64,000 nucleotides of DNA from Methanoregula sp. (GTDB taxonomy: Archaea; Halobacteriota; Methanomicrobia; Methanomicrobiales; Methanospirillaceae). The stretch lies in the NCBI RefSeq assembly GCF_028712425.1, contig NZ_JAQTQD010000003.1, positions 62,001 to 126,000 on the forward strand, in the 5' to 3' direction. The notes beneath the pieces are model-generated. The model was not told where the DNA came from. It did no database searches and saw only the letters and a list, made by a program, of their open reading frames with translations. Below, in pieces: positions 12,766 to 42,776 of the stretch (its first letter is position 1; each line of letters opens with the position of its first letter). The position numbers were made by a program, and so were the translations under genes.

Positions 12766-13584
12766 TTATTTCTCGACCTTTGCAAGGTCAGCACTCAGAT
12801 CTTGTGAGAGATCGGCACCAACGAAATCACCGCTTGTGGGAAGCGCCATAGTAAACCCGGGGGTTACATCGTACTCGACCAGCATGCCCACAGGCAGGGT
12901 GAAGTCGAGGATATGGCCTCCTGCTGTCCTGTCGTCACTCAGGTAGTGGAGGTGGAAACCGGGGACATTCACGCCCTTGAAGAAGACCGGGGTATAAAAG
13001 CCTACGATAGTCCCCGTTGTTCCGGAAAAGGTATACACGGACTGGTTCTTTACCGCCTCAGAGAGCACCGGGAAGGGTTCCTGCTGTGCCGGGACCGAGC
13101 GAACCTTCATGACGGGGAATGTCCCGTGCACCCGGACCGCATAGATCATGTTCCCGGTCGGGAGCTGCTCCTCCAATGAGGCTGTAAAGACCGAGAGGTT
13201 CATCGTGCTCTTCGTGGTGATATTCTGGTCGGCCTGGAAATACGTGACCGTGGCAAACGGCGTTGTCAGGTTGTCCGGCACGATCAGGATCCTGCCATCT
13301 GCCTTTGCCTGGTAGATAACGCCATCCAGGACGATCATTTCGCCGTCGAGGGCATCGAAAGTTCCAATTCCGAAATCCCCGCGATGCTTCAGGTCACCGG
13401 TGGGCTGTATCCCGTCATATACCCCGAGCATGAGCGCATCGATGGTCGAGACCTGGTAGAGGGTGTCCTGGTCGGCAGGAACCGGAGCCGGTACTGATCT
13501 CATATAATGCGTATATGCAGATACACCGGCAAAGACGATCACGACGGCAAGTCCGATGCCGAGAAAGAATTTGAGATTATCCAT
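12766..13584 (-). CDS. Membrane-anchored alpha-acetolactate decarboxylase
   Basis: The enzyme family decarboxylates acetolactate to acetoin with a zinc ion. The C-terminal half has the metal site, FHLHYLSDDRTAGGHILDF, with H211, H213 and H224. The middle part has GIGTFDALDGEMIVLDGVIY, the hallmark of BudA/AlsD. The 272-residue protein carries an extra N-terminal hydrophobic segment (residues 6-24, GIGLAVVIVFAGVSAY) with no processing site, followed by a Pro/Ala linker. The catalytic domain is therefore predicted to face outside, anchored in the membrane. It is followed 22 nt away by no cotranscribed gene other than its upstream parvulin neighbour. Family call is secure; physiological role is not. 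Confidence 0.85.
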   Translation of the reverse strand: MDNLKFFLGIGLAVVIVFAGVSAYTHYMRSVPAPVPADQDTLYQVSTIDALMLGVYDGIQPTGDLKHRGDFGIGTFDALDGEMIVLDGVIYQAKADGRILIVPDNLTTPFATVTYFQADQNITTKSTMNLSVFTASLEEQLPTGNMIYAVRVHGTFPVMKVRSVPAQQEPFPVLSEAVKNQSVYTFSGTTGTIVGFYTPVFFKGVNVPGFHLHYLSDDRTAGGHILDFTLPVGMLVEYDVTPGFTMALPTSGDFVGADLSQDLSADLAKVEK

Positions 13585-13606: not shown

Positions 13607-13888
13607 TTACTTCTTCCCGGTCACTTTAATAACATGGAACCCGAACTGGGTCTTGACCGGCCCGACCACCTTGCCGACCTCTTCCTCGAATGCGACCTTC
13701 TCGAACTCAGGGACCATCATTCCCTTGCCGAACCAGCCAAGGTCTCCCCCTTTCTTTCCGGAGGGGCATGAAGAGAACCTGCGGGCGACTTTGTCAAACT
13801 CCTCACCATCAGAAAGGCGTTTCATGATCTGGTTTGCCTGGTCTTCCGTCTTGACAAGAATGTGGGATGCGCGAGCCTGTGCTGCCAT
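13607..13888 (-). CDS. Parvulin-type peptidyl-prolyl cis-trans isomerase
   Basis: The 93-residue protein is a stand-alone rotamase domain: ARASHILVKTEDQA at the N-terminus, FSSCPSGKKGGDLGWFGKG with the catalytic-loop Cys, and GPVKTQFGFHVIKVTGK at the end with the second active-site His. It lacks a signal peptide, so it is cytosolic. It catalyses proline isomerisation during folding. It lies 22 nt upstream of the acetolactate decarboxylase gene and 45 nt downstream of the dihydropteroate-synthase-like gene on the same strand, so cotranscription is likely. Confidence 0.92.
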   Translation of the reverse strand: MAAQARASHILVKTEDQANQIMKRLSDGEEFDKVARRFSSCPSGKKGGDLGWFGKGMMVPEFEKVAFEEEVGKVVGPVKTQFGFHVIKVTGKK

Positions 13889-40181: not shown

Positions 40182-42776
40182 TTATTGTATGGTCAGTCCC
40201 TGCATGACTGCTGATTCCGGTACATCAAATTCCCGCGTGGTACCGGAAATCCTGTATCTGTCTGTGGCCTTCACATCATAGGGATTGTCGGAAGTTGAAT
40301 AGGGAACAATGAACTCCCCGTTCACGCTCTCCTGCCGGTAGGTGAAGATCCTGCCATTATTGGAAACGAGCGGGACCTCGATGATCCCTTCTCCTTTGAT
40401 GTGAGCGCCTTTCACGTATTCGAAGACTTTCACGTATTTCAGATCAATCGCGTCCGATGTTGCCACATCGGTGGGCGATTCGTGGACAAGGCGATAGTGG
40501 TGTAATGCTGGCACGGTGTCGATGGGAGCGAGAAGATCCGCGCTGTAAACAGCAGCATGATATCCCGGCTGGGGATTACTGTTGTACTGTTGGGCTTTCT
40601 CTTGTGCGGAAACGGGATCCATAAGGACGGCGTCAGTGACTACCGGGATGCTCTGCCCGGTGATACTCGGATCCGCGTAGACCGTGTAATATACGTTCTG
40701 TGAGGCAGGAGTAAGGGATCCATCAAAGTTATGGAGCCGGGATATCACGGTCTGGTAATATGGCTGCTTATTGAGGAGAGCCAAGGTAAATCCGTTGTTC
40801 TTTGTTGGCACAAACAGGTTCTCGTAATACGGGCCTGCGGCATCTGTTGCATTGTACCAGGTCGCCATGGCCCAGAATTTTCCCTGGTCCATCTCGATAT
40901 CGGTGATAATGTAGCGTGTCCCGAGATAATCAGCGATCCTGTTTGCGTTGTCTTCTGACTGGGACATGAAATAGGCAGCAGAACCATTGCTTCCCGCCAC
41001 ACCCTGCTGGAAGGGATTGGCATTGGGGATACGCTTTCCAACAGTTGTGATGATATGGCCGTAGTCCCACCAGGACATGATACCATAGGATTCGTCGGGA
41101 TACTGGAATGTCTCCCTGTCATATGCAGTGAGATACCCGACTCCGGTATCGGGCGTATTGTTCACCAGCCATTCTGCAGATTCTTTCCAGTCCGGGTTCA
41201 TGTCCGTCCCGTGGCTTAATCCATTGGTATACATCATTGAAACCGAGGAGTGGATGAAGAGGAGTGCAACCCCGATAACCAAGACTACTGCAGCAAGGGG
41301 AACGTAGTGTACGCCGGATCTGGCGGCCGGAGCTTTTCCGGCCTTTTTGTGCTTTTTCTGTTTGCCCGGAGTTTCACTATCCGCCCCCCCGGTCTTCTGG
41401 TCCGTGGGACCGGGGGATACAGCGCCTGACAGGAGTTTTCTTATGTCCGGCCAGCTCTTCTCGAAAATGAATGCTGCACATGCGCCCGACATCAGCGCTA
41501 TGTTAATCGCGAGATAATATTCGTACCGGATGTGCTGCCACGTGGAGAAGAGCATCACGATCGACCAGATAATAGCGAAGACCTGTTCGGGACGCTCATG
41601 ACGGAAATTGTTGTAGAGCATGACGAGGATTCCACCTGCCATGAGGAGGAGCCCGTAACCGAACGTTATCCATGCACCATTGAAACTCCAGCCTCGGGCC
41701 TCCTGAACGGTTTCAGTCACCGCAGCCTGACCGAAGAAGGCATACAATGCAGAGACGAAGAGCGAATAGAGCTGTGGGCTGGCAAAGAACAATACGATGG
41801 CCACCAGCACTGCAGAAGCAGCGACCGCGGAGATAAAATAATACCATGGACGTGACTTCAGATATTTCTGGAGTGTGTATAGATAGACTGACCCTCCGAT
41901 GAGGGCAAGATATGCGAGGATGTGGCCCAGTGAATAGGTTGACAGATCAAGGCCCGGGTTTTTTAAGCCAAAAAGGAGGAGGCCGATGATTGCAATGCTA
42001 AAGACTACCGTGTTGATGATAACCAGGTATTCGCTTGTTCTCTGGCGGCTCGAATCGATGATGAGCTGGACTACAGTAAAAATGCCGGCAATCATCGCAA
42101 ACAGGATCATTGTTGGCATCACAAAGAGGCCGAGCAGATAGGCAACGCCTGTAAGAGCTGCGATGAGAAGGGTACTTTTATACGAGTTTACATCCCGGAT
42201 GTCAACGCTGGTGTCCTTCTCGGAAAACACCGAATACATGTAAAACAGGCAGAATATCACAGAAAAAAGGACTTCTGCAATGTGGTGATCAGCATACCCA
42301 TACATGGACCGGTAATAAAACTGACCGGCAACAATCGCAGTAAATCCGGATGCGAGTAACCCCGTCTTCCAGGTGCCGCAGACCTTTCCGACATAATACA
42401 TGATGGCAACGGTGGCTGCACCCATCAGGGGCGGGACGATGAGGAGGATGTGGATGATCTCGGGACGGGTTGATGCACCGGTTATCAGGCAGCCGATGGC
42501 CACGGTGAGCGGGAAGAGCGGGCCCCAATAGATCGATGTCCCGAATGGGTACTGGGTCATCGGCTCAAACCACCCGTACTGGAGATTGTTCGCGAGGAGG
42601 AACTCCACCTGCCGGAGGTTGTAGAGGGGGTCATCGCTTGCCACGAGGGTGAGGATATCTACGTCCCCCATGTTCAGCAGGGGGAGCAGCCGGAGACATA
42701 GAGCGAAGAGGGAAAAAAAGGCAACAAGAACGAGAATCGTCCAGGTCAGACGGTTTTTGAGATCAAGGGATATCAT
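40182..42776 (-). CDS. aglB: AglB/STT3 dolichyl-phosphooligosaccharide-protein glycosyltransferase
   Basis: The 864-residue enzyme N-glycosylates Asn-X-Ser/Thr sites outside the cell. There are about 13 transmembrane segments in residues 10-500. The catalytic DxD-like MGDVD motif is in the first external loop, FYYRSMYGYADHH is the DHH-type motif in the second, and the hallmark SWWDYGHIIT lies near residue 575 in the soluble C-terminal domain. A Lys-rich cytosolic insert (KQKKHKKAGKAP) precedes the last helix. The gene follows a set of sugar-nucleotide genes on the same strand. Confidence 0.95.
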   Translation of the reverse strand: MISLDLKNRLTWTILVLVAFFSLFALCLRLLPLLNMGDVDILTLVASDDPLYNLRQVEFLLANNLQYGWFEPMTQYPFGTSIYWGPLFPLTVAIGCLITGASTRPEIIHILLIVPPLMGAATVAIMYYVGKVCGTWKTGLLASGFTAIVAGQFYYRSMYGYADHHIAEVLFSVIFCLFYMYSVFSEKDTSVDIRDVNSYKSTLLIAALTGVAYLLGLFVMPTMILFAMIAGIFTVVQLIIDSSRQRTSEYLVIINTVVFSIAIIGLLLFGLKNPGLDLSTYSLGHILAYLALIGGSVYLYTLQKYLKSRPWYYFISAVAASAVLVAIVLFFASPQLYSLFVSALYAFFGQAAVTETVQEARGWSFNGAWITFGYGLLLMAGGILVMLYNNFRHERPEQVFAIIWSIVMLFSTWQHIRYEYYLAINIALMSGACAAFIFEKSWPDIRKLLSGAVSPGPTDQKTGGADSETPGKQKKHKKAGKAPAARSGVHYVPLAAVVLVIGVALLFIHSSVSMMYTNGLSHGTDMNPDWKESAEWLVNNTPDTGVGYLTAYDRETFQYPDESYGIMSWWDYGHIITTVGKRIPNANPFQQGVAGSNGSAAYFMSQSEDNANRIADYLGTRYIITDIEMDQGKFWAMATWYNATDAAGPYYENLFVPTKNNGFTLALLNKQPYYQTVISRLHNFDGSLTPASQNVYYTVYADPSITGQSIPVVTDAVLMDPVSAQEKAQQYNSNPQPGYHAAVYSADLLAPIDTVPALHHYRLVHESPTDVATSDAIDLKYVKVFEYVKGAHIKGEGIIEVPLVSNNGRIFTYRQESVNGEFIVPYSTSDNPYDVKATDRYRISGTTREFDVPESAVMQGLTIQ

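Follow-up and report, generated by a model that had tools for sequence, protein, structure and literature searches.

The window analysed here, a stretch of 64,000 nucleotides from a Methanoregula genome (assembly GCF_028712425.1, contig NZ_JAQTQD010000003.1, positions 62,001 to 126,000), carries on its reverse strand a gene for a predicted acetolactate decarboxylase (ALDC; EC 4.1.1.5), which lies just downstream of a gene for a PpiC-type parvulin (Table 1). The bounds of the ALDC reading frame were found to be exact, with ATG as the start codon, and the identity proposed in a preliminary description of this DNA was borne out by both the curated Pfam profile PF03306 (271.6 bits, cut-off 25) and the NCBIfam equivalog model TIGR01252 (253.9 bits, cut-off 180.65). 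The closest solved structure by sequence was 4bt2 (E 4e-58), which we take to be the ALDC of Brevibacillus (Bacillus) brevis. The AlphaFold2 model of the window protein had a mean pLDDT of 93.0 and could be superposed on 4bt2 over 234 columns, and the best 14 Foldseek matches in the PDB, headed by 4bt2, were all ALDC chains or 1xv2, which is described as similar to ALDC. The nearest named relative, at 86% identity, is encoded in a Methanoregula metagenome genome (L204). The genome from which the window comes comprises 2.67 Mb in 56 contigs and is about 97% complete.

Table 1. Features of the ALDC locus, with positions in the window
Feature	Position	Strand	Basis
Acetolactate decarboxylase (ALDC) gene, 272 aa	12766..13584	-	ORF, PF03306, TIGR01252, fold match to 4bt2
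N-terminal hydrophobic core, residues 6-25 (signal anchor or signal peptide)	13510..13569	-	helix 2-30 in model
Catalytic domain, residues 41-271	12772..13464	-	Pfam stretch 42-260; TM-score (target) 0.96, rmsd 1.2 Å to 4bt2
E82	13339..13341	-	aligned with 4bt2 residue 65; kept in 250/250
R162	13099..13101	-	aligned with 4bt2 residue 145; kept in 249/250
H211, zinc ligand	12952..12954	-	aligned with 4bt2 residue 194; kept in 250/250
H213, zinc ligand	12946..12948	-	aligned with 4bt2 residue 196; kept in 250/250
H224, zinc ligand	12913..12915	-	aligned with 4bt2 residue 207; kept in 249/250
E271 in C-terminal VEK	12772..12774	-	kept in 234/250; 4bt2 residue 253 by offset continued past the aligned stretch
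PpiC-type parvulin gene	13607..13888	-	22 bases upstream of ALDC; PF13616, PF00639

The three zinc ligands named in the preliminary description are all present and are practically invariant in an alignment of 250 family members. The sole protein that misses H224 (L124) is the product of a broken gene ending before that column, and the sole one that misses R162 (L105) comes from a frame-broken gene. E82, R162 and E271 correspond to Glu65, Arg145 and Glu253 in B. brevis numbering, presumably residues with roles in ALDC, and T75 is also present in the window protein. These data support the prediction that the window protein is an ALDC and that its catalytic set is complete; from its profile, residue and model marks it should be active.

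A branch of the same family in genus g12 (L108, L112-L116 and L120) has diverged. Its members keep the zinc ligands, have G at the T75 position and lack the C-terminal tail that bears E271. L108, the only member that was scanned, still scores above the TIGR01252 cut-off (202.7 bits). The function of this branch has possibly changed.

The N-terminal segment and its conservation

According to the preliminary description, an N-terminal anchor would put the catalytic domain outside the cell. The export signal was judged here by hydrophobicity and motif. Residues 6-25 (FFLGIGLAVVIVFAGVSAYT) form an uncharged hydrophobic core of 20 residues, preceded by MDNLK and followed, within the first 40 residues, by a Pro/Ala-rich linker, and the AlphaFold2 model has a helix over residues 2-30. 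The sequence V-S-A|Y at residues 21-24 would permit cleavage, yet the core is 20 residues long and the modelled helix reaches residue 30, and it is likely that the helix stays as an anchor rather than being cleaved after VSA (residues 21-23). Of the anchor described earlier, the hydrophobic segment and the predicted helix were thus recovered, while its retention is only likely. Since the charge rule is near a draw for the window protein alone, with MDNLK before the core and R29 after it, the orientation of the segment rests on the relatives and on the sequons.

From 279 fetched loci, 10 proteins (fragments and broken genes) were dropped by a length, score or coverage filter, and of the 269 left, 19 duplicates with identical last 200 residues were merged to give 250 non-redundant proteins, the window's included. 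Their N-termini were classed by a rule of our own that used a hydrophobicity window, a lipobox pattern and the first ATG within 75 codons of the domain. By this rule the 198 archaeal proteins (with that of the window) comprised 130 forms with a transmembrane or signal-peptide helix (TM/SP), 61 lipobox forms and seven with neither. The 21 "cytosolic" calls were re-read, nine in three frames and 12, all Actinomycetota, in frame only. Of the seven archaeal proteins, L093 (a start miscall) and L224 proved to have the segment in frame, L097 and L105 have it in another frame, in genes that look broken, and L117, L190 and L197 showed no in-frame hydrophobic segment. An absence of the helix from homologues, named in the preliminary description as grounds for refuting an outside location, was not observed: the N-terminal hydrophobic segment is present in 193/198 archaeal homologues, lies in a broken frame in two and is missing from three.

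The bacterial part of the set, which is biased to near relatives, contained 38/52 exported forms by the rule and two more (L238 and L261) with a segment upstream in frame, and these 40 are all of its non-Actinomycetota. The remaining 12 belong without exception to the Actinomycetota; 11 of them lack any hydrophobic stretch, and L282 is ambiguous.

The device itself varies. A long helix is found in Methanoregula and in many members of its order, signal-peptide-like starts elsewhere, and lipoboxes in family f8, to which Methanococcoides vulcani belongs. Around the core, the net charge is higher on the N-terminal than on the C-terminal side in 97/101 TM/SP and 21/21 lipobox proteins of the order, in 22/22 TM/SP and 40/40 lipobox proteins of the phylum sample outside it, and in every protein of two further exported groups (22 and 23 proteins). 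The 130 rows used to build a tree comprised every contig row, one half of the phylum rows and roughly a quarter of those of the order, with some additions by hand; since the search was quick and 44 of the 127 inner branches are open, only its broad shape was used. On it the cytosolic/exported label switches five times, and two of these switches (L224; L238 with L261) stem from miscalled starts. Taken together, the sequences support the proposal that archaeal ALDC members would be exported by whichever N-terminal device the lineage uses.

Two of the archaeal proteins that have no in-frame export segment, L190 (genome G342) and L197 (genome G427), also show no sequon enrichment, with one sequon each. 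Both genomes list a second family match, in G342 only a fragment.

Sequon enrichment

N-glycosylation in archaea occurs outside the membrane. Its machinery is described as membrane-bound in PMC4350412. In the window protein there are four N-X-S/T sequons (N105, N121, N129 and N180), compared with 0.92 and 1.09 expected by shuffling in two estimates. Sequons were counted across the family after thinning to <60% identity, with six doubtful rows left out. The 50 archaeal exported domains that remained had on average 3.58 sequons where 1.07 were expected, and 49 of them exceeded expectation, while the reversed motif in the same domains gave 1.56; the sequences are related, so that these counts are not independent tests. 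The sequons occupy some 43 different alignment positions. In 25 bacterial exported domains the excess was slight (0.88 against 0.57, with 13/25 above expectation), and it was absent from seven bacterial cytosolic ALDCs (0.43 against 0.55), from the single archaeal cytosolic row of the thinned set (1 against 1.10) and from 43 soluble ORFs of the window, mechanically called, which together have 44 sequons against 45.3 expected. Four "cytosolic" rows of the order at first went against this simple picture, with 2.25 sequons against 0.50 expected. However, L093 among them is the start miscall and L097 and L105 have the segment in another frame, and L117 alone has 1 against 0.56. We predict that the window ALDC is N-glycosylated.

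The STT3/AglB oligosaccharyltransferase family (PF02516) has four matches in the genome. One of these is inside the window itself, at 41532-42662 on the reverse strand (72.8 bits).

Distribution and acetolactate source

The view, expressed in the preliminary description, that such enzymes are unusual in methanogens could not be upheld. PF03306 was matched in 144/199 genomes of the order, a few by fragments only, and in 141/392 genomes of the phylum, fragments included. Of 14 control genomes, three had a match (B. subtilis, L. lactis and M. acetivorans, the last a methanogen), and M. jannaschii, H. volcanii and S. acidocaldarius in the same set had none.

The genome encodes a biosynthetic acetolactate synthase (ALS; 861.9 bits), and nothing in it exceeded the cut-off of the catabolic ALS model. 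Acetolactate should therefore be a cytosolic product, made on the way to valine and leucine. Neither the butanediol dehydrogenase model TIGR02415 nor the E1 dehydrogenase family PF00676 was matched in the genome, which leaves acetoin without an onward route among the models tested. A second type of match to the ALS model (about 320-350 bits) was seen in a good part of 25 genomes. In our genome it is a thiamine-diphosphate enzyme (L161:1492-3294; C21:33169-34734, reverse strand) with an N-terminal rubredoxin fusion (PF00301, 74 bits), the fusion having been checked in this genome only; the protein is nearest the pyruvate oxidase model, at 466.5 bits against a cut-off of 742.

Among the 199 genomes of the order, ALDC occurs in 140/180 with an ALS match (E <= 1e-60) and in 4/19 without one (p 1.4e-6), an association that is phylogenetically clumped, is exaggerated by incomplete genomes and by a single genus (g27), and is taken here as weak support. 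In genomes that are at least 90% complete it rests on four without ALS and gives p 0.15, or p 0.02 if the remnant in genome G113 is not counted as an ALDC. Since 40 of the 180 genomes with ALS have no ALDC match, the role of the enzyme is not essential. G113, which belongs to the genus of the window's genome and has 1.9 Mb, retains an ALDC remnant with TGA and TAG (L125; G113:C1:572344-572544), and ALS was not found in it. It perhaps represents a reduced lineage requiring branched-chain compounds.

Gene neighbourhood

The pairing of ppiC with the ALDC gene is seen in Methanoregula and closely related genera. Of the 41 fetched loci that show it, 11 are second copies of a gene already in the set. 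In 38 of the 41 the two genes are 4-30 bases apart, in two 93, and in the remnant locus of G113, where ppiC still adjoins what is left of ALDC, 318. It is probable that they form one transcript. The parvulin sequence starts without a hydrophobic segment, and the pairing may therefore amount only to a shared transcript.

Neighbouring genes were clustered from up to 247 loci, after exclusion of L125 and the 31 short loci L001-L031. The gene caller used for this missed ppiC, calling a longer spurious ORF instead, and ppiC was found by direct search. Among the 25 largest clusters, no pathway-like gene recurs beside ALDC outside the genus; the largest consists of ABC-type proteins joined by general similarity, and the farther neighbours change with lineage. 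We therefore rejected the neighbourhood as a guide to ALDC function, as the neighbours give no pathway link. A small deaminase-like gene, named by sequence inspection, adjoins ALDC in 22 loci of several genera, mostly just upstream (e.g. L035 and L062) and downstream in L146 and L193, but shows no evident link to it.

Discussion

We consider it very probable that the window ALDC is exported across the membrane, and it would probably be held on the outer membrane face, in the space under the S-layer. The outside location claimed in the preliminary description gains support from a kept N-terminal segment with a varying type of anchor, from the charge pattern of the relatives and from the sequon enrichment. 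Judged from these features of the sequences, the external location is almost certainly real and shared by most of the relatives examined. Among the papers listed in keyword searches of the open-access literature, none was seen to describe an exported ALDC in methanogens, and in two Methanosarcina papers, on surface-layer proteins and on protein modifications respectively, the main text contains neither "acetolactate" nor "decarboxylase". The finding is less of a surprise in that export is the rule in the archaeal relatives covered here, and B. brevis reportedly has an exported ALDC as well.

The B. brevis enzyme, which is said to be a secreted exoenzyme, resembles the methanogen protein in fold (rmsd 1.2 Å), catalytic residues and export. 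The methanogen protein differs in its long uncharged N-terminal helix, which is probably anchoring, in its predicted N-glycosylation and in coming from an archaeon without a recognised acetoin pathway. AlsD and BudA of Bacillus subtilis and Enterobacteriaceae (5xne, 5yho, 6j92 and 6inb) have the fold and catalytic set in common with it. They work in the cytosol alongside a catabolic acetolactate synthase, whereas the methanogen ALDC has an export segment and is encoded in a genome with no catabolic ALS above the cut-off. The ALDC of Candidatus Nitrosotalea devanaterra, as described in PMC4836417, is likewise that of an autotrophic archaeon with acetolactate from branched-chain synthesis, but there it is assigned to pH control in the cytoplasm.

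As to its role, we propose that the membrane-held ALDC clears acetolactate leaking from branched-chain synthesis. The biosynthetic ALS of the cell would make 2-acetolactate in the cytosol for valine and leucine, some of which may leak or overflow out of the cell. The zinc-dependent ALDC outside would then convert it to CO2 and acetoin, which is neutral, and thereby prevent an unstable overflow product from accumulating at the cell surface. This role taken by itself is tentative, with a little less than an even chance of being right, and the explanation as a whole, that is, an exported ALDC on the outer face clearing overflow acetolactate, has chances that we regard as evenly balanced. Batch cultures of M. 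thermautotrophicus, the wild type included, are reported to gain acetoin after growth stops, and the authors ascribe this to accumulated acetolactate decaying chemically (PMC13049647). The data on G113, the association of ALS with ALDC and the acetoin of these cultures, as far as that source describes it, fit the overflow reading and do not prove it; with chemical decay as the explanation given there, an enzyme is not obviously needed. A scavenging or signalling role, as suggested in the preliminary description, is possible.

The enzyme may instead act on acetolactate from neighbouring fermenters, forming acetoin for syntrophic acetoin fermenters that return H2 and acetate. Exported ALDCs are found in bacteria too (40/52, in the set biased to near relatives), many of which belong to anaerobic groups, and this is consistent with such an exchange. 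However, acetolactate from fermenters decays chemically as well, and since neither TIGR02415 nor PF00676 is matched in the genome, any benefit to this cell from its neighbours' acetolactate would be indirect. We regard this supply from fermenters as unlikely. It is just as unlikely that the exported enzyme has a changed substrate, for example another 2-hydroxy-3-oxo acid met at the cell surface. The g12 branch, having lost the equivalents of T75 and E271 with its zinc ligands kept, indicates that drift does happen in the family, but in the window protein T75, E82, R162, E271 and all three zinc ligands are conserved, and its TIGR01252 score exceeds the cut-off by a wide margin. The changed substrate offered as one option in the preliminary description is thus not indicated.

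Less probable again is a cytosolic enzyme, its helix inserted in reverse or carrying no targeting signal, that drains branched-chain acetolactate in the manner of bacterial AlsD. The charges around the core of the window protein are near balance, as this would have it, and the archaeal copies without a segment (L117, L190 and L197) imply that cells of this kind could have an ALDC in the cytosol. The direction is, however, fixed by the lipoboxes and signal-peptide-like N-termini of the relatives and by the charge order in the four archaeal groups (97/101, 21/21, 22/22 and 40/40), and the archaeal sequon enrichment accompanies the export segment. We consider a cytosolic location to be improbable.

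Proton consumption by ALDC as a defence against low pH has been proposed for the acidophilic N. devanaterra (PMC4836417). Such a defence requires the reaction to take place in the cytosol; outside the cell the protons would come from the medium and their removal would protect the cell poorly, and the gene is moreover widespread in the order (144/199 genomes), which makes this function very improbable here. ALDC is the second enzyme of the acetoin/2,3-butanediol pathway of bacteria (AlsS-AlsD-BDH), but with no catabolic ALS above the cut-off, no match to TIGR02415 or PF00676 in a genome that is about 97% complete and no linked pathway genes seen beside ALDC, a part in such a fermentation by this cell can be given hardly any credence.

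Clearance of leaked acetolactate outside the cell is the reading that we prefer, and it may be extended. Methanogens and many anaerobic bacteria could have in common a conserved surface ALDC that acts outside the cytoplasm and has been selected to make acetoin from excreted acetolactate, to serve as a shared product or signal at the cell surface; export would have persisted through repeated exchanges of the anchor. This broader proposal is speculative and in our view unlikely to be correct; if true, methanogens and syntrophs that ferment acetoin would be exchanging this compound in a way that has so far gone unnoticed.

Most descriptions of ALDC place it in the cytosol, as an enzyme of fermentation or of branched-chain overflow. 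If methanogens as a rule keep it outside, acetolactate would have to leave or reach their cells often enough to matter, which would point to an overlooked leak or exchange of carbon in anaerobic communities. The role should be accessible in Methanosarcina, for which genetics is available, and an external ALDC would also bear on the engineering of acetoin production in methanogens, a subject of PMC13049647.
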